A DNA stretch of 64,000 bases, taken from Sideroxydans sp. Lineage in GTDB: Bacteria; Pseudomonadota; Gammaproteobacteria; Burkholderiales; Gallionellaceae. Positions 1 to 63,038 of the stretch are shown here, piece by piece. The position numbers and the translations under genes were made by a program. Within the stretch, counting starts at the first letter, position 1. Each line of letters begins with the position of its first letter. The stretch spans positions 372,001 through 436,000 of the forward strand of contig JAQTTU010000001.1 in NCBI GenBank assembly GCA_028710605.1. Reading direction: 5' to 3'. The notes under the pieces were generated by a model. That model was not told the DNA's origin. It saw only the letters and a program-made list of their open reading frames with translations, and made no database searches.

Positions 1-426
1 TCTCTTGCCCGAGAGTTTACCAGCCCTGTTTCGGTACAGAACCATGAATACTGGCGTGGATCCACCGGCGCGACCACGAGCACCTACCTTCCACCAGCGA
101 ACAAGTATTTTCCCTGATGAGCCGGGCTGAGAATCGTTAAGCAACTTTCCATATTTGACGATGTTCTTGTCGATTTCACGCAGGCGATTTATCAGTTCGT
201 CATTAAATACCAAGACAAACCCGCTAACTTCATCTGCGCATGACTTCCAGTGCTCAACACCCGGGTCGGCACCGTACCCACTTTCAGCTGTGTGAACTCT
301 GGCTTTGGTTTCAGGCTCGACTACCTGCTGAGGCTTCGCTACCGGTTCATTTGCTGTACCGGGCTTTGGTTTTTGACTTCGCTTTTTCTCGCTGAAGATT
401 AGCTTGGTTTCGTCGGGTTTTTTCAT
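1..426 (-). CDS. Hypothetical protein, 3' end outside window
   Basis: An open frame of 142 codons begins with ATG at 426 and runs off the window without a stop. It starts MKKPDETKLIFSEKKRSQK and has a Lys/Pro/Gln-rich, probably flexible first 45 residues. A more ordered part follows with a helix-like stretch (ELINRLREIDKNIVKYGKLL). I do not recognise the family. It is transcribed away from the partition operon, and the 327-bp gap between the two holds promoter-like elements. Coding status is inferred from the long open frame and its charged, non-shadow-like composition. Confidence 0.6.
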   Translation of the reverse strand, partial: MKKPDETKLIFSEKKRSQKPKPGTANEPVAKPQQVVEPETKARVHTAESGYGADPGVEHWKSCADEVSGFVLVFNDELINRLREIDKNIVKYGKLLNDSQPGSSGKILVRWWKVGARGRAGGSTPVFMVLYRNRAGKLSGKR

Positions 427-753
427 GCGTTTTGGGGCTTTCTGGAATGTTGTGCAGGAGTGTTTAAAAAAACGATATTGAAACCTTCGGTTCACTTATT
501 GATGTTATGTCGTTAGGGCAACCATCAAGTGCTTGCGGAAGTTGATTTTCAGTTATCCATTTTGGAAATACAAGTGCATTTAGTTGTAATTAAATATAGA
601 CTTCGCAAAGTGTTTATATATAATTGCATCGGTATTATTTGTAATAGGTTATAACTTATCCATTAGCCATTTCGGATTGTGGTTGTTTTATCCAGTCGTG
701 GCGTTATGGGCGGTCTATTTTGGGATGAATTACTTGGCGAGAGGGGTTCAGTG
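427..753. promoter_or_regulatory. Divergent regulatory region upstream of partition operon
   Basis: This gene-free, A+T-rich 327-bp gap separates the leftward partial gene from the rightward ParM-like gene. It holds one copy of the palindrome-heptamer motif on the minus strand (552-569, reading ATTTCCAAAATGGATAAC). It also holds the promoter-like module TTATATATAATTGCATCGG (614-632), repeated upstream of other operons. A TTGCAT box at 624-629 could serve as -35, with GTTATA near 648 as -10. In ParMRC systems the centromere usually lies upstream of parM, so parC could be here, but no clear tandem iteron array is visible. Confidence 0.5.
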
Positions 754-1758
754 ATGAATAAGAGTTTCCATGATGCAATCGGTTTCGATGTGGGGCATTC
801 CACAACAAAGATTTCATGCCTTGTTGATGGCGTGAAGCACGACATTATTTTTCCTTCGGTGGCGACACCGGCATTCACTATTTCAGATGAGAACGAACAA
901 CGTCGAGCTGCTGAAGAAACGGTGGACGTTGATGGGAAGCCATACTTTTTTGGCAAAACAGCACTCATTCAAGGTGGTATGTCCGGCTCTACCGGATTGT
1001 CTGAAAACTGGACTGATACCCCCGAGTACGAAGCGCTGATGCGAGGAGGGTTTGCAAAGGTTCGTGCGCTTGGAATCGATCCTGATAACTGCGTCATCGT
1101 CATGGGCTTACCCACAAATCTGCACTCCCGCCAGAAGGCTGTCTTGAAGTCAGTCGCTGCAAAATGCACGAAGGGACGTGTTTTGGTTGTACCTCAGTCT
1201 CTTTCGCCTTACCACGGCATGATGCTTGATGAATCCGGCAACCCGTCAATGCAAAACAGCATGGAAACTGAATCGTGGGCGGTGGTCGAACTTGGCTACT
1301 GGTCCACAGACATTATGTTGATGCAGGCAGGTGGTATTTGGGTTGAAAAAGCAGCGGGGTCAAGTCGTGGTGTTGCTTTGGCAGCCGACGCGCTGATGCG
1401 GGCGCTGGGTGAAAAGAATGTCACTGTTGGTTTGAATGAGGCTGAGCAAGCTCTTCAAACAAAAACCATCAAGAATTTTGGCAAAAATCTGGATGTATCC
1501 AAAGAGGCTGAAATTGCCATTGGCACTATCGTTGCAGACGTGCTGGATATGTCCACCAAACTAATTGAACCCCACGTCAGAAAACTCGACGGCGTGATCA
1601 TTGCTGGTGGTGGCGCTCCTTTGGTGTTTGAAGCGATTAAGGCGAAATGGCCGCATGCGATTTTGGCTGAAAACCATCGGTTTGCTGTTGCCGAAGGGAT
1701 GCGGCGCTATGCGTTGGTGACGCTTCGCCTGGATGCCATGAGTTCTTTTAGTCGCTAA
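754..1758 (+). CDS. parM: ParM/StbA-type actin-like plasmid segregation ATPase
   Basis: A 334-aa actin-like protein, expected to polymerise with ATP and push plasmid copies apart. The N-terminus carries a phosphate-1 loop (GFDVGHSTTK, residues 10-19). VIVMGLP is the usual core strand, and IIAGGGAP (about 282-289) is the phosphate-2/adenosine motif. The length fits ParM/StbA (about 320-350 aa). The open frame extends 25 codons further upstream, but ATG754 follows GAGAGGGG at good spacing and puts the first motif where the family has it; GTG751 is an alternative. Nine bases downstream begins a ParR-like partner, so the pair looks like a type II partition system. The exact subfamily is uncertain. 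Confidence 0.85.
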   Translation: MNKSFHDAIGFDVGHSTTKISCLVDGVKHDIIFPSVATPAFTISDENEQRRAAEETVDVDGKPYFFGKTALIQGGMSGSTGLSENWTDTPEYEALMRGGFAKVRALGIDPDNCVIVMGLPTNLHSRQKAVLKSVAAKCTKGRVLVVPQSLSPYHGMMLDESGNPSMQNSMETESWAVVELGYWSTDIMLMQAGGIWVEKAAGSSRGVALAADALMRALGEKNVTVGLNEAEQALQTKTIKNFGKNLDVSKEAEIAIGTIVADVLDMSTKLIEPHVRKLDGVIIAGGGAPLVFEAIKAKWPHAILAENHRFAVAEGMRRYALVTLRLDAMSSFSR

Positions 1759-1767
1759 GGGGCTGCC

Positions 1768-2094
1768 ATGGCTTGGGTTAGGGATGGTGGCGCACCCGAC
1801 GAAGTGAAGGTCAGCTTTGTGGTCAACAAAGCTGAACATCCAGAATTGGTTGAATGGCTGTGGGGGCTGCCGTTTCGCAAACAGTCTTCTGTGATCCGTG
1901 ACGTTTTGAGCGAGGCGGCCAAGATGGTTTCAGGTGGTGCTGCGCAATCCATGGCTTTGAGCGGGCAGCCATCATTTGCAGTTACCTCGCCCACAAAATC
2001 AAATCCAAAAGTTGTTGCTTCAAAGACTTCGCCATCTGGTGGCATGACTGCCGCTACTGCGGCAATTCTGAGAAACATGCAGGAAAAGTTCTGA
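1768..2094 (+). CDS. ParR/StbB-like partition adaptor (putative)
   Basis: A 108-aa protein starting after an AAGGGG Shine-Dalgarno, 9 bp behind parM. The first half reads like a ribbon-helix-helix: a beta strand (EVKVSFVVN), then helices including RKQSSVIRDVLSEAAK. The last 50 residues are low-complexity, as expected for a tail that contacts ParM filaments. Known ParR proteins are about 95-120 aa and follow parM, so this is the likely centromere-binding adaptor and autoregulator. The assignment rests on size, position and the RHH-like pattern, not on clear homology. Its TGA overlaps the next ATG by one base, so translation is probably coupled. Confidence 0.6.
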   Translation: MAWVRDGGAPDEVKVSFVVNKAEHPELVEWLWGLPFRKQSSVIRDVLSEAAKMVSGGAAQSMALSGQPSFAVTSPTKSNPKVVASKTSPSGGMTAATAAILRNMQEKF

Positions 2095-3194
2095 TGCGTT
2101 TATTCATTGCATCCAGCCATGTCCTTGCCCGCGATATAGCTAGAGCGCTGCCGGGCATTCAGGAGAGCGCTGATGAATATTTTTCTGTTGGCAACGACGT
2201 GGTGACATGGTGCGATGGTCGATTGCTACAGCTTTGTGATCCTGATTACTACGATAGTCGCTGGGCAAAGTGGGATGCCTCAACTTTGCCCATCAGAATT
2301 CCGTATGACAAATGGCAGCTTACACCCGAGTTGGACAAAACAAGCAAGTCTATCAATCCGGTCGTAAAAAAACAGCTTGCAACAATCGAAGCATTCTTGA
2401 GAAAAGCAACGATAGTTGTAAATGCCAGTGGCGCACGTCACATATTTATTGATGAGGTTATTGATTACTTCGGATACCTCGGCAAAGTTATGCGCTTGCA
2501 CTTGAATATAAACAGCGTCATTTCTGCAAACGTTATTGAAGATTCAATGCAGGACAACTTTAAATTTCGGAATGCTTTTTTGTCCGAAGTTTGTAGATCA
2601 AGGGCTAATTGGTTGGTTGGACATAATTTGTCGCGAGCCGTTACCAAGCTACTTGCGCGTGATCGGTTAATTTCAATTGGCCGCATTCAAACACCTATGC
2701 TCGCCTTGCTAGTTCAACGTTGTATTGAAGTTGAGAAGCGTGAGGCCTCTCCTCGCAATGCTTATTTCACAGCCCACACGCTGATCCACGAGATGCAGTT
2801 ATTTGCTCGTTGTGGAATCAGTGACATCACTACTTTGAAAAACAGAGGGTTCATTGAGACCAAGGGCGATCAAATAAAAGACACCCAACTCGGACGATCT
2901 CTTATCCAGGTATTGCCTGAAAAATTGAAGGATTTAGCTGTAACAGCGGCATGGGAAAACGCGCTAGAGCAGGTCGCTTCAGGGAATTACTCACCAGAAG
3001 ATTTCATGTGGCGACTCGATATTTTTATTCAGAACCGGCTTGATGAGATAAGAGCTTTGGCCGGAAGAGTCACTATTGCTTCACAACCGGAGCTTCAGTC
3101 CCATCAAAAAACGATGTCCGGGCAGCACGTTCGTACAACAAACATATCAGCAGCTTCAATGAGGGGTCAGCATGTTGCCAAACCTTCTTGTTAG
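2094..3194 (+). CDS. Shortened TopB-like protein without catalytic residues
   Basis: A 366-aa protein that aligns by eye with DNA topoisomerase III: MRLFIASSHVLARDIARALP at the start, DVVTWCDGRLL, the toprim region, a SIGRIQTPMLALLV segment (195-207) and a typical C-terminal block (GFIETKG...LGRSLIQVLPEKLKD, 252-280). It is little over half the usual TopB length of about 650 aa. The toprim Glu (normally EKPS) is Ser7. The DPDREG acidic motif is replaced by NASGARH (110-116). The domain with the catalytic Tyr is missing between about 215 and 240. It cannot be a normal strand-passing enzyme. Coupled to the ParR-like gene, it may bind DNA in segregation (inference). Its 3' end overlaps the convergent XRE gene by 122 bp. 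Confidence 0.8.
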   Translation: MRLFIASSHVLARDIARALPGIQESADEYFSVGNDVVTWCDGRLLQLCDPDYYDSRWAKWDASTLPIRIPYDKWQLTPELDKTSKSINPVVKKQLATIEAFLRKATIVVNASGARHIFIDEVIDYFGYLGKVMRLHLNINSVISANVIEDSMQDNFKFRNAFLSEVCRSRANWLVGHNLSRAVTKLLARDRLISIGRIQTPMLALLVQRCIEVEKREASPRNAYFTAHTLIHEMQLFARCGISDITTLKNRGFIETKGDQIKDTQLGRSLIQVLPEKLKDLAVTAAWENALEQVASGNYSPEDFMWRLDIFIQNRLDEIRALAGRVTIASQPELQSHQKTMSGQHVRTTNISAASMRGQHVAKPSC

Positions 3195-3597
3195 GCGTGT
3201 GGGCGGTCCACAGCGGATCGTTGCGCATTGCCTCCAGCGCGTACTGCATTTTTTCGTCTTGGGTGGGTTCAAAAATAAAGTCTTCGGGAGACAGCGCGCC
3301 GGCCAACAAATAGACCTGTCCAACGGGCAGGCTGAGGTATTTGGCTACGCTCACGAGGTGAACCCTAGTCATGCCACTTGTCGGGCGTTCGCCGCGCGCC
3401 AAGGCCAGCAAATATGGGTACGAAATATCAAGGCTGGCAGCGAGTTCCGCAGGCGATTCATTATTTGCAGCCGCCTTTTCCCAGAGCTTCAACATCAACG
3501 CTTCATACGTCTCTTGAGGAGTTTCCGCTCGTGGTTTGGGAGTTGTTCTTTTGACGGACTGTTGACGACTTTTGCTTTTATCTTTGGGGGTGACCAT
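3073..3597 (-). CDS. XRE-family helix-turn-helix regulator
   Basis: A 174-aa protein with a basic N-terminal tail (first 25 residues rich in Lys, Arg and Ser). A Cro/C1-type helix-turn-helix follows at about residues 47-78 (PAELAASLDISYPYLLALARGE). The C-terminal half is mostly helical and unrecognised. ATG3597 follows AAGGTG at suitable spacing. It reads toward the partition operon, and its last 122 bp are antisense to the end of the TopB-like gene, so collision or antisense effects are possible. It probably controls its own promoter or a neighbour in the 3598-3737 gap, but no operator was identified. Confidence 0.8.
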   Translation of the reverse strand: MVTPKDKSKSRQQSVKRTTPKPRAETPQETYEALMLKLWEKAAANNESPAELAASLDISYPYLLALARGERPTSGMTRVHLVSVAKYLSLPVGQVYLLAGALSPEDFIFEPTQDEKMQYALEAMRNDPLWTAHTPNKKVWQHADPSLKLLICLLYERAARTSFFDGTEAPVVKQ

Positions 3598-3737
3598 GAA
3601 TACACCTTTTTTGAAGCCAGAGCACCTTAACGGGTTTGCAAGTGTCTCTTCTTCATCATCATTTAGTTCAACTTTTTAATGTCTTACGGCGTTGTTGTCA
3701 ATATCTATTAAATCATTTGTCAGGTCAGGAGGTAATT

Positions 3738-4703
3738 ATGCTTTCCGCAGATTCCCGTAATCACTCGGTAGGCTTCAAATATGTGAACGAAATGCTGAAT
3801 ATCAGCTATTTGTCCGGGTGGGTTAGAAAACCCACAAAGGATGGGTTTCTGCTGCAGCAAACCAACAGTCTAGCGCACGCCATTTTCATCACGGTTGATC
3901 CTGGCACGCGCATTCCGAAAGAAACCACTCCGGTCACCGTCGTTTGCCATGCTTTCGGCAAAAAAAGGGAGGACGGAAAAAGCATTGTGCAACTACGCGC
4001 GATCGACATCAAAAAACCATCGTCTCGATCAATGCCGATTGACCTGATTTGGAAAAGTTCACTGGCTCCAGGAGCCAGCATTGATGCGTTCGAACCTTTC
4101 AAGCCGGACGGATCCTTCAAGGGCATGATCGCCGAACAGATCGACGATTCGGAAAGCAATGAAATCGCAGATATTTTCAGGGTGCTGGAAGCAACCAAGG
4201 GACGGCTCAACACAAAGCTGGGAGAAAACGCCAATGTGGTGATGCTGGCCGGATTCGTTGAAGGAGCAGCTGTGGTCCGTGCTACACACCTCGGCGGCAA
4301 AGAGCAAAGAGCGTACATCTCGATTTTGCTTCGCCAGCACCGCGATGCATCTGTTGCGATTCCAATCAGGTTGTATGAAGCGCCTGAAATGTTGCCGGGT
4401 ATTCTGAAAACTATTCCTGTTGGCTATCCAGTGTCGATGGTTGGGCATGTGCAGATCAAGGTCATCCCGAATGATGAAAAATTGGAAGAAATCGCTGATT
4501 CCTTTTTGTATATCCGCACCCGGAATTTGTCAGGCGTGACTAAAGGCGTGGAGATCCTGCAGGAGCCTGTCTGGTGGGGTGAAATGGCACGGCGCATTGT
4601 GGGTGAGCGCCAAGACCGTCAAAAGAAGGCGGCACAGCCCGCTGTAGCCGCCGCGCCAGGTGCGCAGGGCGGTGCGTCCGTTCTGGTCGATGAAACGCTT
4701 TAG
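3738..4703 (+). CDS. Hypothetical plasmid protein, 321 aa
   Basis: ATG3738 sits five bases after a near-perfect AGGAGGT (3727-3733); the open frame extends further upstream but without a comparable ribosome site. The protein is soluble, with no signal peptide or membrane segment. It alternates beta-rich stretches (SYLSGWVRKPTKDGFLLQQ; VTVVCHAFGKK; NVVMLAGFVEGAAV) that resemble OB-fold proteins in general style, and ends in an Ala/Pro/Gly-rich tail. I do not recognise the family, and single-strand or nucleic-acid binding is only a possibility. It stands alone between the XRE regulator and a strong terminator. Confidence 0.75.
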   Translation: MLSADSRNHSVGFKYVNEMLNISYLSGWVRKPTKDGFLLQQTNSLAHAIFITVDPGTRIPKETTPVTVVCHAFGKKREDGKSIVQLRAIDIKKPSSRSMPIDLIWKSSLAPGASIDAFEPFKPDGSFKGMIAEQIDDSESNEIADIFRVLEATKGRLNTKLGENANVVMLAGFVEGAAVVRATHLGGKEQRAYISILLRQHRDASVAIPIRLYEAPEMLPGILKTIPVGYPVSMVGHVQIKVIPNDEKLEEIADSFLYIRTRNLSGVTKGVEILQEPVWWGEMARRIVGERQDRQKKAAQPAVAAAPGAQGGASVLVDETL

Positions 4704-4760
4704 CTGATCTGAATACCTTCCCACTTGCCTCCCCGGCAAGTTGCTCCACCCCGGAGCTTG

Positions 4761-4786
4761 ATCCCGCCCCAGTGCGGGATTTTTTT
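4761..4786 (+). terminator. Rho-independent terminator after 321-aa gene
   Basis: ATCCCGC (4761-4767) and GCGGGAT (4774-4780) form a 7-bp stem with a 6-nt loop, followed by TTTTTTC. It lies 58 bp after the stop of the 321-aa gene and closes the left block before the integrase module. Confidence 0.85.
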
Positions 4787-4790
4787 CGGA

Positions 4791-4957
4791 ACACTTGATT
4801 CTGAGGTTATGCCAAATTCCCTTGAATCCTTGAGCTATTGTGGCCATTCCTCATGGGACGACGTTTTTTATTGCATCCCCTTATACCCGCGCCATTGCTC
4901 GCGTAATGCCATTTTAATCCTGTTGCATGTGTTTATACTATGCGATAAGATCAAAAC
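4791..4957. promoter_or_regulatory. Upstream region of integrase module
   Basis: A gene-free gap before the DUF4224 gene. It includes AATCCTGTTGCATGTGTTTATA (4916-4937), which in reverse complement matches the TTATA...GCAA promoter-like module found upstream of several operons. On the plus strand TTTATACT (4932-4939) could be a -10 for the integrase operon, starting about 15 bp before ATG4958. Confidence 0.4.
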
Positions 4958-5194
4958 ATGGACACCCCACTTTTCCTAAGCGCCGACGAGCTATATTTAC
5001 TGACTGGCTTCAAATTTAAAGCCAAGCAGATCACCCAGCTACGCACTATGGGCATTGCCTTCCGCATCAATGGATGCGGAAGGCCAGTTGTAACGCGTTC
5101 GGCAATAGAGGGGGGTAAGGAATCGAAAACATCACAAAAGCAAAAGCAGGAATGGCAGCCAACCTTGTTGCAGTTTGATCCAAGGGCGGCGTAA
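4958..5194 (+). CDS. DUF4224-like integrase-associated protein
   Basis: A 78-aa protein beginning MDTPLFLSADELYLLTGFK with KAKQITQLRTMGIAFRINGCGRPVVTRSAI. This pattern (a short MerR/excisionase-like winged-helix core ending in GRPVV-R) is that of DUF4224 proteins, encoded directly before phage-type tyrosine integrases. The family may act as a directionality or regulatory factor, but its role is not established. It ends one base before the integrase ATG, so the two are almost certainly cotranscribed. The C-terminal 25 residues are Lys/Gln-rich. Confidence 0.8.
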   Translation: MDTPLFLSADELYLLTGFKFKAKQITQLRTMGIAFRINGCGRPVVTRSAIEGGKESKTSQKQKQEWQPTLLQFDPRAA

Positions 5195-5195
5195 C

Positions 5196-6257
5196 ATGGC
5201 TGCCACCATGGGACGCAGACCGTCAAAAAACTTAAACCTTCCACCAAAAATGCGCGCCCGCCCAAAAGCGGGCGGCATACTTTGGTACTACTACGATGCT
5301 GGCGGAAAACCGCGCAAGGAAATACCTCTCGGCTGCGATTACACCGCCGCTGTGCGCAAATGGGCTGAACTTGAACAAGACAAACCTGAAAAGGCCGCAC
5401 AGCTACTTACCTTCAAGAACGTCGCAGATCGTTACATCCGAGACGTTCTACCAACCAAGGCGGCACGCACTCAGCGCGACAACCTAATCGAGCTGGAATG
5501 GCTATTCAAATTCTTCAACGCCCCTCCCGCTCCACTCGATAGTATTAAACCTGGTCACATCCGACAATATATGGATTTGCGGGGCAAAACCGGCAAGATA
5601 CGAGCCAACCGCGAGAAAGCTTTGTTTTCTCACATCTGGAACATGGCCAGGTCGTGGGGTCTAACCGACAAACCAAACCCCTGCGCCGGCATTAAAGGCT
5701 TTAGTGAGGTAGGCCGCGATATCTACATCGAGGATGCCGTGCTAGAAGCCGTATGGGAGGCCGCAGACATCACCCTACGCGACGCGCTTGACCTTGCCTA
5801 CCTTACTGGCCAGCGACCGGCTGATGCGCTCTCTATGCGTGAAACTGATATACGCGACGGCATGCTTGTTGTTGAGCAAAACAAAACAGGCAAAAAACTC
5901 CGTATTGAACTTGTTGGCGAACTAGCTGATCTAGTCGCACGAATCAAAAAACGCAAAGAGTCTTACAAGATACACACCCTTGCATTGATTTGCACAGAAG
6001 CTGGTCGCGCTCTTACCGAAGGCGCGTTACGGTCTCGTTTTGATAAGGCAAGAACAGCGGCAGTCAAAACCAAGCCTGAACTCGCCGAAGCCATTAAGGC
6101 ATTCCAGTTTCGCGACCTGCGCGCAAAAGCAGGAACCGACAAGGCAGACACGGATGGCATGCGCGCAGCACAAGAGCAACTTGGACATGAGAACATGGCC
6201 ATGACAGAGCATTATGTCCGCTCACGAAAAGGACAGAAAGTAAGTCCTACAAGATAG
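5196..6257 (+). CDS. int: Tyrosine site-specific integrase (phage type)
   Basis: A 353-aa integrase. The N-terminus (MGRRPSKNLNLPPKMRARPK) is the arm-type DNA-binding domain of lambdoid-like integrases, followed by a core-binding SAM-like domain. The catalytic domain shows LTGQRPADAL with the first Arg (about 207), FRDLRAKAG with the second Arg (about 308), LGHENM with the Gly-His pair, and Tyr in TEHYVR (about 340). The second box has Arg instead of the usual His, a variant also common in this family. ATG5196 sits one base past the upstream stop; an in-frame ATG at 5175 would overlap it. It faces the tRNA-Lys 3' end at 6479-6523, its probable recombination site. The set looks functional. Confidence 0.92.
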   Translation: MAATMGRRPSKNLNLPPKMRARPKAGGILWYYYDAGGKPRKEIPLGCDYTAAVRKWAELEQDKPEKAAQLLTFKNVADRYIRDVLPTKAARTQRDNLIELEWLFKFFNAPPAPLDSIKPGHIRQYMDLRGKTGKIRANREKALFSHIWNMARSWGLTDKPNPCAGIKGFSEVGRDIYIEDAVLEAVWEAADITLRDALDLAYLTGQRPADALSMRETDIRDGMLVVEQNKTGKKLRIELVGELADLVARIKKRKESYKIHTLALICTEAGRALTEGALRSRFDKARTAAVKTKPELAEAIKAFQFRDLRAKAGTDKADTDGMRAAQEQLGHENMAMTEHYVRSRKGQKVSPTR

Positions 6258-6305
6258 ATTTATATAAATTGAAATTGCGGAGTAAACCAAGAACAGAACT
6301 GACTT

Positions 6306-6340
6306 AAAGGCTTACATTGTTGTAAGCCTTTATTTTATTG
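6306..6340 (+). terminator. Terminator downstream of integrase
   Basis: AAAGGCTTACA and TTGTAAGCCTTT (6306-6331) pair around a short loop and are followed by ATTTTATT. A related but diverged copy lies exactly 140 bp downstream (6444-6478), as part of the tandem duplication. Confidence 0.75.
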
Positions 6341-6443
6341 GCATTTATGGCGATATTTAAACTCGCATAAAAAGGACAGAATTTAAGTCCTAAAACATAG
6401 ATTTTGGGTGAATTGCGGACCAAACCTAGAATTGCGGACTGCT

Positions 6444-6478
6444 CAAAAGCTTAACCAATCTCTAAGCTTTTGTTTTAT
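6444..6478 (+). terminator. Second terminator hairpin before att core
   Basis: CAAAAGCTTA (6444-6453) and TAAGCTTTTG (6463-6472) form a 10-bp stem with a 9-nt loop, followed by TTTTATT. It sits immediately before the tRNA-Lys fragment and would keep transcription from the integrase side out of the core. Confidence 0.7.
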
Positions 6479-6523
6479 TGGTGGGTCGGGCGAGATTCGA
6501 ACTCGCGACCAACGGATTAAAAG
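6479..6523 (-). tRNA. 3' fragment of tRNA-Lys(TTT), attachment core
   Basis: Read on the minus strand this is CTTTTAATCCG, then the variable and T arms with GTTCGAATC, the acceptor strand and an encoded CCA: the last 45 nt of a proteobacterial tRNA-Lys, from the anticodon loop onward. The match breaks at 6524, and no D arm, 5' acceptor strand or anticodon 5' stem follows, so it is not a working tRNA gene. Together with the adjacent integrase and flanking arm repeats it is best read as the core of attP for integration into the 3' end of a chromosomal tRNA-Lys gene. It could alternatively be one end of an integrated element. Confidence 0.85.
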
Positions 6524-6707
6524 GCCGTACCGTGTTTCCCTCAACCATGCGGGTTTGAAGCCCGTTTCCGGTCCGCAATCTTTGCAAAACTTAGCCTATA
6601 ACGGCGCGCCTTCCAGAATGTTTGCGGACTGAAATTTGAGGCGCGCATTATGCCACAGGAATTTAGTTTTTTTGGCCAACTTTTTGGTTGTTGTTCTAAT
6701 CGGCGTT

Positions 6708-15273: not shown

Positions 15274-18200
15274 CTAATCCTTCTTGAACGGATCTTCAAT
15301 TGGAGTGTATTTAGGCCCAGCTTGATAAGTGGTAGCCACATAATTGGTTTTGCGCATATCACTGCTTGATTGCTTCACTTCAGGCGCTTTATCAACCGGT
15401 CTCCACTGTTCACCGTCATGGTGCATCACGCCCTCATCACTAACCGCATACATCCCCTTGAATTGGGCAGGATCCTCGGGCATCCCATTCTTCCACTTCT
15501 CTTCACCCAAAAACCACTTTCCGTCCTCACCAACATAATATCCGCGAGCTACACCGTCTTTTTCCACGAGACCACCCACTGGCCGGCCAGACTCATCCAC
15601 GCCACCAACGGTGAACTTATGGCCTTCGGAATCTTTCCGATCAGCCGAGTATTCCCCCATCACAACAGGCGCAGAACCCCCTTGGGCTGCTGGCGCAGCA
15701 TACTGGGTGCTGCCCCCAGTACCAGGAGCGCCAGACAAGCTCTGAGACGTTCCTGGCTGCGCAGGTGTGGCTCCGCCAGTACCGCGCAACTCGAACATCG
15801 GATTGGCAGTATCGTTGACCGATCCTTTTGGCAGGAACTTGTCTGTGAGTTTTAGACCTTGATCAGTGATAGCACCACCAAGTGCAGCCCCAGTCGCAGG
15901 GCTTCCTGTTTCAGCAGCAGTCACCCCCCCAATAACCAAACCTGTACCGACGCTCACCGCCTTGGCAGCTGTATTCACCACAAGCTTCTTACTTAAATCG
16001 TCTTCAGCTTGCTTGAATTTCTCTGAAGCCTGCGGCACAGTGTTTTGAGGCATGCCACCCTGCACGACAGGCGCTGTATGCGTTGCCTTATCAACCTTCG
16101 TCTCAATTCCTGTAAACCCAGCCGGATTAACGCCGGTCGCAGGTGCTTGCACCTGTGCTGCTTTACCTGCCGCTTGTTGGGAGTTTTGCGTGTTGATCAC
16201 GGCTGCTGCTTCTGCAGTACCTCCTTTAGTTTTCAACTTGTCAATTGCAGCTTGTTCCTTCTCGGTAAATTGAGCACCACCGTCTTTGAATTCACTCCCG
16301 AATGCTGACGAAATCAGTTGCGCACCATCATCCAAATCATGCTGAGTCGAATAATCGTTCAATACCTCCAGTGCAGCCCCACCCCGACTCCCTGCCGCGT
16401 TCCATGTTTTTTGCCGCCTCAGCTCGCGCGCTTTCATTCCGAGTTTCCACTGCGCTTCATTTCCTCCGAGTTTTAGATAATCGGCTTTGGTCTTATCAAC
16501 GAATGCTTGCTCGTCATAGGTTTCATGCCCAGGTGTAGAGCCAGGCAACATGTAGCCATTGTTCTCCATCACCGCACGAGCCACAGTCGAACTATCCGAC
16601 TCCGCCGTTGCGCCAACAGACAGCGACGCGCGACGCGCCATCTCGGCCTTTTGATTATAGTCATCTGCTTTTTTAATGGCTGTCTGGTAAGTGGCTCCCA
16701 TTGTATTCCCCAGCTGCGCACCAACCTGTAAACCAAGCGTCTTGTCCTTGCCTTCAGAAAACGAAGTCTGCAACGCTTCCACATGCTTCTTTGCGCCGGT
16801 GTTGGTGTTCTTGTAATTCGCAGCGAGGGTGTTTGCCGACGAAACAGCCGTACCGTGCTCAATCCCAGCTTCAGCGGCAAGATTTGCCCCAGTGCCAATA
16901 ATTTCAGCCAAGGGCGTGCCCATCTGCAGCTTGGCTCCAATGTAGCCCTTCATAGCCGTTCTATCTTCAGCGGTCAGCTTCGTGCCATGAGCCAGCTCTT
17001 CAACAATCGTGTTTATTTTGTCGGCGCTATCCGTCTTGGTTTTGCTCAGTGCTTCGCCATATTTGACGTTCAGGCTGCGCGTGTCTGCTTGCGTTTTTGT
17101 TTGGGAATATTTGGCTTCTAACGCCTTGCTTGCATTATGACCTTCGCTCGTGGAAAGCGCTTCGTTATGGGTGCCTGTTTTTTCAAGCGCAGCGCCGACT
17201 TTTAATTTATCCTCACCGATCTGCCCCTTGGTGTCGTTGTTCACAAAATTGCCATGGCCATCAACGTTCATCGAAACTTCAGACCCCGATCCAACCAACG
17301 CCCCCTTCTCCGCTAATGCCCCATTCTTCATCGGGTCTGGTGACATCGCTTTTTCATCGAAATGATCCCTCGGATTCATCGCGCCAGAGAGCTTCGTCAG
17401 GCCATATACAGAACCGGAAAGCAGCGCCATGCTGAGCATTGGGGTAAGAGCGAAGAGTTCCGAAGCCAAACCGATCTTGGTGGCCAATACTTCATAGAAT
17501 GGATATGCGTTCGTCATATTTACACCGCCACTTGCCATTTGCCCAAGTGCATCACTCGTCTGCATCTGAATAATGTAATTTATGACCATTGCCGTTGGTA
17601 AAAAGGATTGTGTCCAAACAGCGAACATGATGTAGCCGCCCAATACAGCGATCGTTTTACTTGGCATCATCATGGCCACGATCAGCAGGATTGGCGAAAA
17701 CAAGTAAAACAGAATCATCAAAATATTCATCATCGGCACAGCCGTCTTAGCGAATATTGAGGCTCCTGCCGCCTGATCCAAACGAGTTTGATCCTGCGCA
17801 CTGAAAACACCCGCGTTAGCAATACAAGTGCTGGTCATCAATGATGCTGACGTGTTGCACTTGATGGCATTTGACAGCGGCTGCATGGCGATCGCATTGA
17901 CGATGAAGGATTGTGCATCTTGCTGCGCCGACATCAATCCGCCAGTTACGTCATTAAGCGCGTCCGTCAGATTTGAAAGTTCTGTTCCTGGCACAATCGG
18001 AATTGGTCGATCAGAAAATGACTTTGTAATGAGTGAATGCAATCCGCCCGCAGTGATAATAGGATTGGCACTCACAAGTCCTGTTGCGGCGGCCAAGGCG
18101 GACTGAGAACTTTCACATGTATATGTAGAGCCTGCTGTTGGCCCGCCATCTGCATAAAACACCGTCAACCCGGCAACCGGAAACGAACCATCAGTAGCCA

Positions 18201-18774
18201 ACATGTAATTGGTAAGAATCGGGGTGTTGATCGCTTTCTTTGAATCCCAGGCCGTAGAATATTGGGCGCAATCACGAATGTAAGACTCAAACGAATTTGA
18301 CCAATTTGAACTTGCTGATTTGACATTACCGGGACGCAATGAGTAGATCAATTTAAGTGGATTTGCGAATCCGCCGTCTTTAAATGTTTTGCTAGCCGTC
18401 GGGGTTGTCATTGTTGACTCAATCAAATTTCCAAGTTCATAGGAAATTTTCGAAGCGAAACTCGCTGGCACACCGACTATCAAAGGGATGTTGGCGACAT
18501 TATCAACTTGACCGGTATAGTAGTCTTCGACAGTGAGCGTCATCTTCGGCTGAATGCCGCCGAAATACAGAAAAAACAATATTAGAAAAGCATTTACATT
18601 CGGCTTGCCCCCACTCACCGCTGGCAGAATCATAAACAGCAAAGCAATCAAAAACGAGAGAAGAATCAGCGAGCCACCATTGAAGGTGGGAGAGCCGAAG
18701 ATCATTCCGACTGCATTGAGCGCCGACATCACCATTTGGTGCTCACCGAACGAGAAGATAGTTCCGACTGTCAT
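15274..18774 (-). CDS. traG: Conjugal transfer mating-pair stabilisation protein TraG
   Basis: A 1166-aa protein, longer than F TraG (about 940 aa). The N-terminal third has several membrane segments (SLILLSFLIALLFMILPAVSGG; VPMMNILMILFYLFSPILLIVAMMM; TPMLSMALLSGSVYGLTKLSG). A long soluble periplasmic part rich in Ala, Gly, Lys and Thr follows. The tail ends in TNYVATTYQAGPKY-x4-DPF, matching the nearby secreted protein. In F-type systems TraG works in pilus assembly and mating-pair stabilisation. It is the last large gene of the tra operon, 18 bp after traH. ATG18774 follows AAGGAAAATC. The membrane topology and position make the call secure. Confidence 0.9.
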   Translation of the reverse strand: MTVGTIFSFGEHQMVMSALNAVGMIFGSPTFNGGSLILLSFLIALLFMILPAVSGGKPNVNAFLILFFLYFGGIQPKMTLTVEDYYTGQVDNVANIPLIVGVPASFASKISYELGNLIESTMTTPTASKTFKDGGFANPLKLIYSLRPGNVKSASSNWSNSFESYIRDCAQYSTAWDSKKAINTPILTNYMLATDGSFPVAGLTVFYADGGPTAGSTYTCESSQSALAAATGLVSANPIITAGGLHSLITKSFSDRPIPIVPGTELSNLTDALNDVTGGLMSAQQDAQSFIVNAIAMQPLSNAIKCNTSASLMTSTCIANAGVFSAQDQTRLDQAAGASIFAKTAVPMMNILMILFYLFSPILLIVAMMMPSKTIAVLGGYIMFAVWTQSFLPTAMVINYIIQMQTSDALGQMASGGVNMTNAYPFYEVLATKIGLASELFALTPMLSMALLSGSVYGLTKLSGAMNPRDHFDEKAMSPDPMKNGALAEKGALVGSGSEVSMNVDGHGNFVNNDTKGQIGEDKLKVGAALEKTGTHNEALSTSEGHNASKALEAKYSQTKTQADTRSLNVKYGEALSKTKTDSADKINTIVEELAHGTKLTAEDRTAMKGYIGAKLQMGTPLAEIIGTGANLAAEAGIEHGTAVSSANTLAANYKNTNTGAKKHVEALQTSFSEGKDKTLGLQVGAQLGNTMGATYQTAIKKADDYNQKAEMARRASLSVGATAESDSSTVARAVMENNGYMLPGSTPGHETYDEQAFVDKTKADYLKLGGNEAQWKLGMKARELRRQKTWNAAGSRGGAALEVLNDYSTQHDLDDGAQLISSAFGSEFKDGGAQFTEKEQAAIDKLKTKGGTAEAAAVINTQNSQQAAGKAAQVQAPATGVNPAGFTGIETKVDKATHTAPVVQGGMPQNTVPQASEKFKQAEDDLSKKLVVNTAAKAVSVGTGLVIGGVTAAETGSPATGAALGGAITDQGLKLTDKFLPKGSVNDTANPMFELRGTGGATPAQPGTSQSLSGAPGTGGSTQYAAPAAQGGSAPVVMGEYSADRKDSEGHKFTVGGVDESGRPVGGLVEKDGVARGYYVGEDGKWFLGEEKWKNGMPEDPAQFKGMYAVSDEGVMHHDGEQWRPVDKAPEVKQSSSDMRKTNYVATTYQAGPKYTPIEDPFKKD

Positions 18775-22979: not shown

Positions 22980-25394
22980 TTATCCGCGCTCCGCGATTAA
23001 CTCGTTAATTACATCAACGGCATTTTCACCGGCATGAATTCGATCCAGTACAGCATCTCGCTCCCAACCTTTAGTTGAGAACAAGACTTGCGGGAACCTG
23101 TCAACAATCAGTCGTACTACACCCCATGAGTCGCCACTTCGAATCATCATTTCCGAATAACGACCAGGGATGGTATGAATCGACTTCATCATGCTCAGGG
23201 TGTAAGGATCCAGTTTTAAATTGCCGGATTTAAGCGCGTGCTCAATCGAGTCCGGCTTTTGCTGCATAATGATCTGCCATGCTGAGCTGCCGATGATCGC
23301 GCGGCCAACAGGCGAGTCATACAGATCGGCAATGCTTTGAGTAATAATCCATGCAGCACCCTCATGTTTGCGGACCTTTCGATAGGCGGCCTCAATTGCC
23401 TTGCCCATGATCGGATCATCCAATAATGCCCACGCCTCATCGACCAGAAGCAATTTTTTACGCCCTGAGGTCAGATACATTTCATGGCTAATGCTGTCAA
23501 ACAGCAAAAGTAAAACGACTTGCTGCAGAACTTTTTTGCTGTGCAAATCTTGCAATTCAAGAACGACGTAGTCGTTGGTCAAATCGACGTTATTCGCGCC
23601 ATTAAACCAGCGCCCGAAGGAACCTTGGCGTGTGAATGGATATAGCTGCGTGCCGATATCTTTTATGCGCAGATCCTTGTCGTTCAGACACTGCTCTGCG
23701 ACCAGCGTGATATCCGCCTCATGGCCGGCGACGCTGAAAGCGGCGAGGATCTTCGCTTCAATCGCGGCCTGCCTGAAGTCATCAAGCCCATCTACCGGTG
23801 CTGCCATCTTGGTAATGACAGCTTTAAGCATATCCATGTCTTCTTTGATATCGACTACATGGGTAAACGGATTTAAGCAAATATTGCTATCTTCGGAGAA
23901 TTCGATGAACTGCCCGCCAAGAACCCGGCACAATTTTTCTTGGGATCTCCCTTGGTCAATAGACCAAACACGTCCGCCACTTGCTCTCATATCGCAAATG
24001 ATTTTTTGTGCAACGAAAGATTTACCCGCTCCCGCTTCGGCCACAATAAAACCGTTGTAGTTCGTTGGTGAATCGTAGGGATCAAACAATGCCAATTGTC
24101 CTCGCCGACCAATGAACAAACTCATTCCGCCTGTGCCACTGCCCTGCCAGTTTCCAAGAATTGGTAAGTGATGAATTGCATGAGAAATGCACAACGTGCT
24201 AAAACGGTAGAGGTTTTTAATGCCTTGAACACTCTGTCCAAACGGCAAGACAGTATAGAAAAGAGGTCTCAGAATGACCCTATCTTCACGCATTTCAAAA
24301 CCAAACGAAGCTGCCCATGCGCGCCAAGCGGCGGCCAGGCCGGACAACCTTTCTCTGCTGCGTGAAAATAGCGTCATAGTGAAATTCAGTTCGCATAGCA
24401 TTCCTGCATCGCCGTCGATCTCTTGAATCAGCTTATCCATGCCTCTTTGCTTATATCCCAACATCGGAATAAAGCGCGCAATCGGGCCAATTGCTTGGTT
24501 AGTTAACCATGCGTACTTTGTGCGAACTGCAGACTGCTTTTTTTCTTGATCTGGGTAATAGATTGTTGCGGACATCCAGAATGGATCGGTAACCTGATTC
24601 TGTGAACCCATTGGATCGCCAATCAACATATTCATCAACCCAATACCGGCTGTTTTTGGGTAACGCTTAACAGCGAGCATCTTGGCGAAATATTTCCCAT
24701 CGTCAAAATTGATCTCGTCGTTTTTGCTTTTGAAATCGACAGAAGTTGCTGGTGCAAATACCTGTTCACGAGTTGGCAAATAATCATCAACCGCGAAATC
24801 ATCTCGCTCATACAAATAAAAAAAACGTCGTAATAACGCGAGATAGGATGACTCATCCATCTGTTTCAAATTTAGCCCTGCAGACCCCAGTCCTTCTTTA
24901 AGTTTCGCAGCGAGATCAGAAACCTGTTCTCTCTCGTTTGCGCTTGGTTTAAGTGAGCAAGGAATTGTTATGCTTACGATGACGCGCTGACGATTTAAGC
25001 AGGTGTTGTTCATGCCTCTAAGAGGGGCTTCAACGCCTTGCGTCAGCATTTCCACATGCTTCTGAGCAACCTCGGCAAGAATGCCGCGTGCCTCTATTTT
25101 TTTGGACAGGTAGAGTCCTGACATCAACGACACATCCGGTTCGGAGAAAAGCCCGAACTGAATAAATGTGTCCTTCGGAAATCGAGTTGTAAGAACAGAT
25201 TTTAGACGGCTGACGGTACTTTCGTCGGCACCTGTAATTGGTTGCGCTTCAAAACAAACACCAAGACGGTTTTCTCCAGAATTGAATTGAAGAATGAACG
25301 CCCCGCTTTCAGGATCAAATGACCTGGCTGCTATATTCATATATGGCAATCCAGAACGTTCTGGTTGAAGTTGAATTTTAGTTGCGATGTCCAT
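22980..25394 (-). CDS. traC: Type IV secretion ATPase TraC (VirB4 family)
   Basis: An 804-aa cytoplasmic ATPase that powers pilus assembly at the inner membrane. Walker A is EAGAGKSFVAQKI (about 448-458), Walker B is KLLLVDEAWALL (about 648-658), and a late RKHEGAAWIITQSIADL box is typical of VirB4/TraC proteins. The length matches F TraC (875 aa) and related proteins. It lies between the pilin 2 gene and the small membrane gene. ATG25394 begins 30 bp after a strong hairpin that separates it from the pilin. Confidence 0.95.
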   Translation of the reverse strand: MDIATKIQLQPERSGLPYMNIAARSFDPESGAFILQFNSGENRLGVCFEAQPITGADESTVSRLKSVLTTRFPKDTFIQFGLFSEPDVSLMSGLYLSKKIEARGILAEVAQKHVEMLTQGVEAPLRGMNNTCLNRQRVIVSITIPCSLKPSANEREQVSDLAAKLKEGLGSAGLNLKQMDESSYLALLRRFFYLYERDDFAVDDYLPTREQVFAPATSVDFKSKNDEINFDDGKYFAKMLAVKRYPKTAGIGLMNMLIGDPMGSQNQVTDPFWMSATIYYPDQEKKQSAVRTKYAWLTNQAIGPIARFIPMLGYKQRGMDKLIQEIDGDAGMLCELNFTMTLFSRSRERLSGLAAAWRAWAASFGFEMREDRVILRPLFYTVLPFGQSVQGIKNLYRFSTLCISHAIHHLPILGNWQGSGTGGMSLFIGRRGQLALFDPYDSPTNYNGFIVAEAGAGKSFVAQKIICDMRASGGRVWSIDQGRSQEKLCRVLGGQFIEFSEDSNICLNPFTHVVDIKEDMDMLKAVITKMAAPVDGLDDFRQAAIEAKILAAFSVAGHEADITLVAEQCLNDKDLRIKDIGTQLYPFTRQGSFGRWFNGANNVDLTNDYVVLELQDLHSKKVLQQVVLLLLFDSISHEMYLTSGRKKLLLVDEAWALLDDPIMGKAIEAAYRKVRKHEGAAWIITQSIADLYDSPVGRAIIGSSAWQIIMQQKPDSIEHALKSGNLKLDPYTLSMMKSIHTIPGRYSEMMIRSGDSWGVVRLIVDRFPQVLFSTKGWERDAVLDRIHAGENAVDVINELIAERG

Positions 25395-60869: not shown

Positions 60870-63038
60870 CTATGTGTATCCGGTGACCTTGCCCATCTTG
60901 CCCTGGTTGTCTGCAGCGGTAACCTTGCAGTCCGGGTATCCGCTGCACCCCCAGAACGCGCCCCTGGCACCGGTGCGTTTTCGCATTGGGTTTTTGCATT
61001 TGGGGCAGGCAGGGGCATCTTTCGCAGGAGCTTTATCTTGGCCAGCGCTCTCTGCTGACGCAGCACGCTCTTCGAATACGAAATCCACCTTGCCGGACAG
61101 ATCGGCGGCCAGCTTCAGCCCGGCTGAAAATAACTTGCCGGTTTTTCCGCTCTTGAATCCGGGCGTGTTCTGGATCGAGCCGGTGGCCAACAAGGACTCG
61201 CACTGCGCGTCAGTGAGGCGCAACCCGGCGATTTCACGCCATAGCTTGAACCCGCACTTGCAGGACAGCGTGCGCGCATCAGAAGTAACCTCGTTTTTGC
61301 ATTTTGGGCACTTGGCTTTGATGGTCGTCGTGGCCGGCGCGCCCTGAATATCCAACTTGGCCAACTCGTTTTGAAGCTGGTCGTACACCTTTTGGATCAC
61401 GTCTTTGAAGCCTGCTTTGCCAGCTGCAACGAGATCCAGTTCTTTTTCCACATCGCGGGTAAAGCCCAAATCAATGAATTTGAATTTGTCCACGAGTGAA
61501 TCTACGATCAGCTCGCCCGATGGGGTTGGTTCCAGAAATTTCTTGACGGTCTTGACGTAGGCACGACTCACGATGTTGTCCATGATCGCGGCGTAGGTGG
61601 CCGGGCGACCTATACCCTCTGTTTCCAGCTTCTTTACAAGCGAAGCTTGGGTATATCGACCAGGTGCTTTGGTCTTCTTGGACAGCAGTTCGCCGTGCTC
61701 AACGTTCAAGGTTTGGCCTTGCTCGATCACAGGAACCGGGTTGGGCGCTTCTTTTTCGCCCCCCTCTTCGGTTTGGTCGTTTTCAATGAGCTTGAGCCAG
61801 CCGCTATAAATCAAGGTGCGGCCTTTCCCCTCAAACTCGATGTGCTTACCCTGCACCAGCTCCGTGGCGGTCAATCTGGCCGTCCGCACCTTGTAACGCG
61901 CATCGGCCAGCTGACACGCAATGGCGCGCAGTCGAATCAGTTTGTACAGCGCGCGCTGATCGCTAGTCTCGCCCGCGTCCACAACATCCCAGTGCGTAGG
62001 GGTTATTGCAGGGTGTCCGACCTGCGCCCCCTCCGGACATGGAAACTTGCGCTGCTTCTCGACCATATCCAATCCCAGCTTGGCCGCTTCAGCGCGAATG
62101 TCTTTTAGCGACTCTTCAGACACGTTTGGATTGTCGGTACGGTGGTAGGTGATGTGCCCCTGCTCGTTTAATTTCTGCGCCGCATGCATCGCAGCTTTTG
62201 GATCGAGACTCAGCGCCACGCTGGCCGCCTGCAGCATGAGGGACGTATTGAATGGCGGCGGCGGGCTACGGCGCGCTTCATGCTCTTCGAAAGTTTTGAC
62301 GACAACCGCCTTTACTTTGGTTACGGCAGTCGCAAAAGCTTTGTCCATGAAAAACGGACTGTCATCTGTGACAAATTCCGGTTTGATCAGCCACTCAGCA
62401 AACCATTCGCTTTCCTGCTCACCAAAATATAGCTTCGCACCGAAATGGTTCGTTGGACGAAATGCTTTTATTTGCCGTTCGCGCTCAACGACCAAGCGCA
62501 CAGCGGGACTTTGCACCCGGCCTGCAGATAACTTCTGGCCGGTTTGCTGACTTAAAACAGGGCTGACCAAATACCCCACCAAGCGATCCAGAACGCGTCT
62601 TGCCTCCTGTGCGGCAACAAGGTTCATATCGATGGTGCGATGCGCCTTCAGCCCCGCATTCACTGCTGTGGCTGTGATTTCACCAAAGGTCACGCGTTTC
62701 GGATTCGACAGCCCCAAGCATTCCTTCAAATGCCAGCTGATGCTCTCGCCTTCCCTGTCTGGGTCGGTTGCCAGGTAAATTGCTTCTGCGCCTTTGGCGA
62801 GCTGTTTAAGGCCATCGATGCGCTCTTTCGATGATGGGTAGGATTTACCTGGTTGCCCGGGAATGGGTTGAGATGGGATGTACTCATACTGAGGTGCGAA
62901 ATTCGGGGCGCTAACGCCCATTTCATTTCGGGGAAGATCGCGTATATGCCCTACGCTTGCAGCGATCTTCCAGCCATCGCCTAGTATGGCAGTGAGCTTT
63001 TTGATCTTGCCGGGGGACTCGATGATCATGAGCTTCAT
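60870..63038 (-). CDS. topA: DNA topoisomerase I (type IA)
   Basis: A 722-aa enzyme that relaxes negative supercoils. The toprim domain has MIIESPGKIKKL with the catalytic Glu, and YLATDPDREGESISWHL with the acidic motif. GRVQSPAVRLVVERE and GHITYHRTDNPNVSEESL hold the catalytic Tyr (about 301). PGRYTQASLVKKLETEGIGRPATYAAI is the conserved late block. The C-terminus has zinc-ribbon Cys clusters (KCPKCKNEV, SCKCGFKL, ACPKCKNPM). All catalytic residues are present, in contrast to the TopB-like protein at 2.1-3.2 kb. Coupled to the upstream gene (ATGA). Confidence 0.95.
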   Translation of the reverse strand: MKLMIIESPGKIKKLTAILGDGWKIAASVGHIRDLPRNEMGVSAPNFAPQYEYIPSQPIPGQPGKSYPSSKERIDGLKQLAKGAEAIYLATDPDREGESISWHLKECLGLSNPKRVTFGEITATAVNAGLKAHRTIDMNLVAAQEARRVLDRLVGYLVSPVLSQQTGQKLSAGRVQSPAVRLVVERERQIKAFRPTNHFGAKLYFGEQESEWFAEWLIKPEFVTDDSPFFMDKAFATAVTKVKAVVVKTFEEHEARRSPPPPFNTSLMLQAASVALSLDPKAAMHAAQKLNEQGHITYHRTDNPNVSEESLKDIRAEAAKLGLDMVEKQRKFPCPEGAQVGHPAITPTHWDVVDAGETSDQRALYKLIRLRAIACQLADARYKVRTARLTATELVQGKHIEFEGKGRTLIYSGWLKLIENDQTEEGGEKEAPNPVPVIEQGQTLNVEHGELLSKKTKAPGRYTQASLVKKLETEGIGRPATYAAIMDNIVSRAYVKTVKKFLEPTPSGELIVDSLVDKFKFIDLGFTRDVEKELDLVAAGKAGFKDVIQKVYDQLQNELAKLDIQGAPATTTIKAKCPKCKNEVTSDARTLSCKCGFKLWREIAGLRLTDAQCESLLATGSIQNTPGFKSGKTGKLFSAGLKLAADLSGKVDFVFEERAASAESAGQDKAPAKDAPACPKCKNPMRKRTGARGAFWGCSGYPDCKVTAADNQGKMGKVTGYT

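Follow-up and report, generated by a model that had tools for sequence, protein, structure and literature searches.

What does a topoisomerase do in a segregation operon once it has lost the means to cut DNA? The question is raised by a stretch of 64,000 nucleotides from Sideroxydans sp. (Gallionellaceae; GenBank assembly GCA_028710605.1, contig JAQTTU010000001.1, positions 372,001 to 436,000, forward strand), referred to here in its full length as the window. In it, a gene for a shortened relative of topoisomerase III, which we call mini-TopB, follows parM and a small parR-like gene. An original prediction, made from these letters alone, had described it as a catalytically dead topoisomerase kept as the third gene of a plasmid partition operon. 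We tentatively read mini-TopB as a TopB-derived pseudoenzyme, which most likely binds DNA and assists the ParM-ParR maintenance module without catalysis, and give this reading close to an even chance.

Retained and lost parts of mini-TopB

The gene and its landmarks are as follows (aa, amino acids; HTH, helix-turn-helix; pLDDT, predicted local distance difference test).

2094..3194, + strand: mini-TopB, 366 aa from an ATG with no stop inside the frame; by sequence a topoisomerase III derivative that is gate-less and catalytically dead
2112..2114, + strand: toprim glutamate position (residue 7), now serine, as in all three homologues
2421..2441, + strand: NASGARH, a shorter stretch replacing DPDREG (alignment; TASNQGQ and TASNAGQ in two relatives)
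2673..2696, + strand: SIGRIQTP block, kept (alignment and conserved columns)
2742..2762, + strand: approximate site at which TopB lacks its middle part, about 260–310 aa including the catalytic tyrosine (phmmer and alignment)
3073..3194, + strand: C-terminal tail overlapping the convergent HTH gene (residues 334 onward have pLDDT below 50; the HTH frame sets the substitution pattern)

Mini-TopB matched the NCBIfam topB profile TIGR01056 (E=3.2e-51) and PRK07726 (E=1.4e-60), with scores of 174.7 and 205.7 bits that lie far under the respective cut-offs of 515.75 and 597, so it is homologous to topoisomerase III without being a complete enzyme. In a phmmer comparison with E. coli Topo III, residues 1–216 matched residues 1–216 and residues 239–318 matched residues 528–605. 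We also aligned nine sequences, comprising six full-length TopBs and three gate-less proteins (minis). The block absent from the minis extends from just past the SIGR-QTP segment to the YTEGTLI segment, and GIGTxAT was lost through a second, short deletion. What is established about the type IA fold leads us to take the excised block as domains II and III with the catalytic tyrosine; the gate domain block is absent from all three minis. As judged from the alignment, the retained parts correspond to TopB domains I and IV. The N-terminal, SIGRIQTP and C-terminal blocks originally described as TopB-like were recovered by both phmmer and the nine-sequence alignment, and the frame is intact, as had been stated.

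The losses are concentrated in the active site. In mini-TopB the toprim EKPS reads SSHV, and all three minis have serine in place of the toprim glutamate and have lost DPDREG. Among 21 full-length TopBs (11 of 13 viral-contig loci and 10 others, leaving out L094, with the same frame length as L095, and L101, a fragment), the toprim glutamate and the first aspartate and the glutamate of DPDREG are each present in 21 of 21, and the second aspartate in fewer than 19. Within the retained parts, 48 columns are conserved in at least 19 of the 21; another 31 such columns fall within the two deletions and were left uncounted. We classed eight columns as catalytic (E, K, P and S of EKPS; D, R, E and G of DPDREG), a split that was our own choice, drawn from known motifs. 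None of these eight was kept in all three minis, compared with 32 of the 40 others (Fisher p=3.4e-5), including GR-QTP and R--A-W--G-N. Mini-TopB should not cleave DNA by the known mechanism. The predicted catalytic death is borne out at this level by the change from glutamate to serine, the missing DPDREG and the excised block with the catalytic tyrosine.

Structure prediction, proposed together with alignment to TopB as a check on the original prediction, gave a confident fold. The AlphaFold2 model, built from an alignment of 14 sequences (three minis, one Allochromatium and 10 viral-contig TopBs), had a mean pLDDT of 85.7 and a predicted template modelling score (pTM) of 0.81, with a single low-confidence stretch at residues 334–366 (pLDDT <50). 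The eight best Foldseek matches in the PDB were all E. coli Topo III (best E 3.8e-21; query-normalised TM-score 0.74–0.78; root-mean-square deviation (rmsd) 5.4–6.8), and the top entries include complexes with 8-base single-stranded DNA (ssDNA). Mini-TopB is thus predicted to fold into a compact body with the domain I and domain IV fold.

Selection after inactivation

Gate-less homologues were found in two further genomes of the family, G034 (61% identity) and G087 (63%), which makes 3 of 158 family genomes including its own (E 1e-20). Because these genomes share the gate-less form at about 60% identity, we reject a local truncation or sequencing artefact. The original prediction had named a local truncation beside full-length TopB in close relatives as evidence against itself; instead, the two closest homologues found are gate-less, and full-length TopB occupies the same slot in more distant relatives.

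Outside the antisense overlap described below, the pairwise ratios of nonsynonymous to synonymous substitution rates (dN/dS, NG86) were 0.247, 0.284 and 0.208 over 317, 318 and 321 codons, with bootstrap 95% ranges of 0.17–0.32, 0.19–0.38 and 0.15–0.30 and a maximum of 0.43 (300 resamples per pair). Synonymous divergence between the genomes was considerable (dS 0.56–1.09). Changes at codon positions 1/2/3 numbered 77/69/145, 75/61/132 and 39/34/94, with third-position changes 1.8–2.8 times those at the first or second. In the nucleotide alignment every gap length is divisible by three, and neither a stop nor a frameshift occurs in the three genomes. As the three compared minis are all already dead, this constraint follows inactivation. 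Retention by selection, as first proposed, is supported by dN/dS of 0.21–0.28 in all three pairs and the same gene order at all three loci, and the values are far from the neutral value near 1 that would have spoken against it. The dN/dS of mini-TopB is similar to that of parR (0.31–0.39), and both parM (0.08–0.10) and a pair of full-length Allochromatium TopBs (0.049) have lower values.

These results bear on the idea that mini-TopB is a decaying, unneeded remnant of topB, open by chance. Three related loci without topB in the slot, and a constraint weaker than that of the full-length TopB pair, are what such decay might produce. Against it, the frame has stayed free of stops and frameshifts in three genomes at the observed dS, with dN/dS nowhere above 0.43 in the bootstrap, and the core of a confidently predicted fold is intact. 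We consider decay very unlikely.

The C-terminal tail behaves differently. In the last 41–42 codons, changes at positions 1/2/3 were 9/16/2, 8/11/1 and 5/10/1 in the three pairs, and dS was 0.03–0.06. This flipped pattern fits the HTH gene on the opposite strand, so the last ~40 residues of mini-TopB are a by-product, with which their low pLDDT agrees. In G468, a related locus discussed below, the end of a full-length topB likewise overlaps the HTH gene, so the overlap predates the mini form. The tail would suit an explanation in which the whole frame is kept just through this overlap or through translational coupling, which we find scarcely credible given the purifying pattern in the 317–321 codons outside the overlap. 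Maintenance by the antisense gene alone is refuted for residues 1–325 by that pattern and accepted for the tail.

Operon context

The genes around mini-TopB are as follows.

754..1758, + strand: parM, actin-like ParM/StbA family, 334 aa (Pfam ALP_N 4.4e-12, above cut-off; PRTRC_D 1.2e-27, below cut-off)
1768..2094, + strand: parR-like gene directly after parM, 108 aa (position; NCBIfam ParR E=0.0034, weak and below cut-off)
3073..3597, - strand: convergent HTH repressor-like gene, a conserved neighbour, 174 aa (synteny; Pfam HTH_26 E=0.11, weak; PHROG 3949 transcriptional repressor E=9e-4)
3738..4703, + strand: conserved 321-aa protein beyond the HTH gene (no Pfam or NCBIfam match; aligned from seven loci)

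By its profile matches, the parM product is an actin-like ATPase-family protein, and its plasmid homologues carry ParM/StbA annotation. The small second gene had no tblastn match at 1e-3 to the EbN1 plasmid region with an annotated ParR. The predicted ParM/ParR operon thus stands as a ParM-type context, with ALP_N above cut-off, and its ParR identity comes down to a weak profile match. The ATG of mini-TopB shares one base with the parR stop (TGATG), an overlap that was originally noted and is kept at all three mini loci. It suggests that mini-TopB may be translationally coupled to parR. All three loci also share the order parM, parR, mini-TopB, convergent HTH gene and 321-aa gene.

The 321-aa gene lies beyond the HTH gene in seven of the seven loci where it was found, and the conservation of its product in the two close relatives is about that of ParM. 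Upstream of parM, window positions 440–770 average 80% column identity over the three mini-TopB loci and contain conserved blocks, which makes this region a candidate centromere or promoter. Scans returned three promoter-like sites (4.5 expected) and six terminator-like sites (3.9 expected, standard deviation 2.2).

Related loci and the origin of the gate-less form

Full-length TopB occupies the same operon slot at four loci, in G468, G352, Allochromatium humboldtianum and the A. tepidum plasmid pAt1. All four proteins carry EKPS and YPRT. Their acidic motif is DPDREG in G468 and G352 and DPGREG in both Allochromatium proteins, whose activity is therefore uncertain. The gene between parM and topB matches the parR of the window by tblastn solely in G468, which has one additional small open reading frame (ORF) there; the parM of G352 is broken. 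A related convergent HTH gene lies downstream of topB in G468 and G352 and, after one intervening gene, also in A. tepidum. The altered acidic motifs of full-length TopBs, DPGREG in L064 and L065 (Allochromatium) and DAAREG in L079 (G333), are possibly early steps of active-site change.

Three genomes of the genus of G468 (G353, G913 and G914) have parM, parR, the HTH gene and the 321-aa gene without TopB; set against G468 and its full-length topB, their loci (L076, L119 and L118, respectively) offer a natural presence/absence comparison. In G913, just ~50 bases separate the parR and HTH stops, and an apparent scar there, a tblastn match to the TopB C-terminus (E=6e-5), was rejected, as parR and the strand complementary to the HTH gene account for it. 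The EbN1 and Cupriavidus Ni-2 plasmids carry parM with no topB within 5 kb downstream, and there was no TopB match near the G311 parM. G283 and G333 were left unscored in this survey (contig end or too little downstream sequence).

In the phylogeny, the minis branch within a clade of TopBs from the related loci and the EbN1 plasmid (support 0.992), and the node for their exact sister has a support of 0.06. On the simplest view, an ancestral parM-linked operon carried full-length TopB, which among its descendants stayed whole, is absent or was cut down to domains I and IV, in an order of events that we infer. In detail, full-length topoisomerase III would have followed a small second gene in the ancestral operon. 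In the lineage of this bacterial family, the strand gate with its catalytic tyrosine would then have been excised and both toprim acidic motifs would have decayed. This would leave domains I and IV as a predicted stable globular protein, its start overlapping the parR stop.

The gate-less family is real but has few members. The search for other ParM operons with a short TopB-like gene, suggested with the original prediction, yielded the two in G034 and G087, where the gene is under purifying selection. Among genome contigs, a single-protein query matched six stretches with no relatives, and an alignment query matched 23 with three relatives (both minis plus full-length TopB of A. humboldtianum). 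Among viral contigs, 42 matched, with no relatives. In a sample of the order, 38 of 399 genomes matched at 1e-20, with mini-TopB the sole gate-less form and the rest in frames of at least 619 aa. In a sample of the class, 3 of 369 matched at 1e-40, its own genome and two with frames of 687 and 657 aa. Among at least 5000 plasmid records, all 40 of the matches listed were two-piece and full length, with no gate-less form among them. Phage matches came from 24 records, of which 20 were listed; the one-piece matches H44, H46 and H47, checked one by one for gate-less forms, lie in frames of 700–708 aa with a YPR motif. G087 has a further type IA topoisomerase match (C6:86995-89881), split across two open frames of 495 and 259 aa.

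The carrier element

Further features place the operon on a mobile element.

4958..5194, + strand: DUF4224 protein adjoining the integrase (profile match)
5175..6257, + strand: tyrosine integrase (Pfam Phage_integrase 1.4e-16)
6479..6527, no strand: att repeat of 49 bp at the junction of tandem copies, identical to the 3' end of the intact tRNA-Lys copy except at one base
15277..18771, - strand: TraG_N conjugation protein (Pfam 1.1e-53)
22983..25391, - strand: TraC_F_IV conjugation ATPase (Pfam 9.3e-54)
60870..63038, - strand: full-length TopA-like type IA topoisomerase, in the second element copy (Toprim, Topoisom_bac and C-terminal zinc domains)

The carrier is a 79,707-bp element integrated at tRNA-Lys in two tandem copies (298772–458234 of the contig), with 0 differences over 79,707 positions; the single mismatch in a BLAST comparison of the copies falls in the outermost att repeat. 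Window positions 1–6478 are the right end of copy one and 6479–64000 most of copy two. The genome holds two identical mini-TopB copies because the element sits in exact tandem, which may reflect real tandem integration or an assembly effect. TraG_N, TraC_F_IV and TraG-D_C domains on the element were all above cut-off, and no relaxase family was found among the nine element proteins that were profile-scanned (of 83 ORFs). The integrase, the att repeats at tRNA-Lys and the conjugation genes together identify an integrated conjugative-type element in tandem copies, and the plasmid of the original prediction gives way to it. The element also encodes a C4 antisense RNA (RF01695; 32753–32835, - strand; 49.2 bits, cut-off 45), a phage-type antisense RNA.

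This setting brings in the main rival to a partition role, namely that mini-TopB chiefly regulates the integrated state, its DNA binding repressing excision or integrase expression. PbTopoIII-beta is reported to restrain excision of the island HAI2 (PMC6220960), and island-borne TopB proteins may already have a non-catalytic role of this sort. Mini-TopB and the integrase are ~2 kb apart on an integrated element. Against this, its start overlaps parR and not the integrase gene, and the block of parM, small gene and topB also occurs on a plasmid, A. tepidum pAt1. We regard this explanation as unlikely, though well worth keeping in view.

The TopA-like gene suggests another role for mini-TopB, as partner or modulator of a second type IA topoisomerase. 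Type IA matches in the genome comprised a 903-aa frame, taken for the chromosomal TopA, and two copies each of the TopA-like gene and mini-TopB; a full-length TopB was not found, which led us to reject pairing with a host TopB. The TopA-like protein, with its Toprim, Topoisom_bac and zinc domains and 36% identity over residues 2–554 to the 903-aa frame, would be the partner. No close counterpart was found in G034 or G087, both with mini-TopB, although its absence from G034 is weak evidence as that genome is in ~720 contigs. Nor do G034 and G087, although both are metagenome assemblies, support the idea that TopB decayed because the TopA-like gene took its place. A partnership of this kind seems improbable.

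A possible non-cutting role

We return to mini-TopB as an accessory of the ParM-ParR module. In type IA enzymes the G-strand groove runs along domain IV (PMC9960139), and with the GRIQTP and R--A-W segments kept, the remnant probably still binds ssDNA. It would most likely bind the DNA of the element where this is single-stranded, gapped or forked, leaving it uncut, and could serve ParM-ParR as a non-catalytic accessory while the element is excised or replicating. More speculatively, mini-TopB may mark sites of incomplete replication and crossing points, or hold them, for segregation or for another topoisomerase, such as the TopA-like enzyme of the element. We advance with more reserve, as a possibility, the wider claim that gate-less dead type IA topoisomerases, reduced to domains I and IV, form a first described family, kept by selection to bind DNA as the third member of an actin-type partition operon that sits on an integrative element.

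Several observations weigh against this interpretation. Mini-TopB has a dN/dS above those of parM and the full-length TopB pair, which indicates relaxed constraint, and the three TopB-less loci of one genus show that the slot is dispensable for the partition module. Upstream of parM, clear ParR-binding iterons were not found, just short two-copy repeats. The net charge of the mini-TopB core is only +3 to +7, inside the TopB range, and its rmsd across the whole protein makes the domain placement merely roughly Topo III-like. Only three gate-less members were found, in scans that were non-exhaustive.

If the wider claim is true, TopB of parM-linked operons has a structural role that needs no cutting. 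A natural, enzyme-less yet selected TopB in the same slot separates a non-cutting from a cutting role and points to a so far unknown non-cutting job for the topoisomerase III fold, open to a direct look in a small protein of ~325 ordered residues. Type IA topoisomerases are regarded as enzymes. This view would broaden with a gate-less pseudoenzyme under selection, which would suggest how the base of domains I and IV is used alone.

Comparison with known systems

Mini-TopB shares with topoisomerase III (TIGR01056/PRK07726; E. coli TopB, 1i7d), of which plasmid RP4 TraE is an example, the domain I and IV fold, the SIGR-QTP and R--A-W blocks and the C-terminal part of domain IV, but it lacks the gate domains, the catalytic tyrosine, the toprim glutamate, DxDxE and GIGTxAT. 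The function of plasmid-encoded topoisomerase genes was called unknown in 2014 (PMC4207749). Titles and abstract openings in a literature search with few subscription journals gave no account of topoisomerase III in a ParM/ParR operon, and the matches listed held nothing relevant on dead or truncated type IA topoisomerases.

The nearest known systems each share part of this arrangement. Type II ParM-ParR-parC operons likewise have an actin-like ParM followed by a small ParR-like gene, whereas here the third gene is a dead topoisomerase and the site an integrated element. The genomic-island TopBs (TopB3 of PPHGI-1 and PbTopoIII-beta of HAI2) are similar in being TopB-family genes on integrated mobile elements; they affect element excision and are described as type IA topoisomerases (PMC6220960), whereas mini-TopB is without the catalytic half. 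The parM-topB loci of G468, G352, A. humboldtianum and pAt1 have the same operon slot, but the TopB that fills it is full length.
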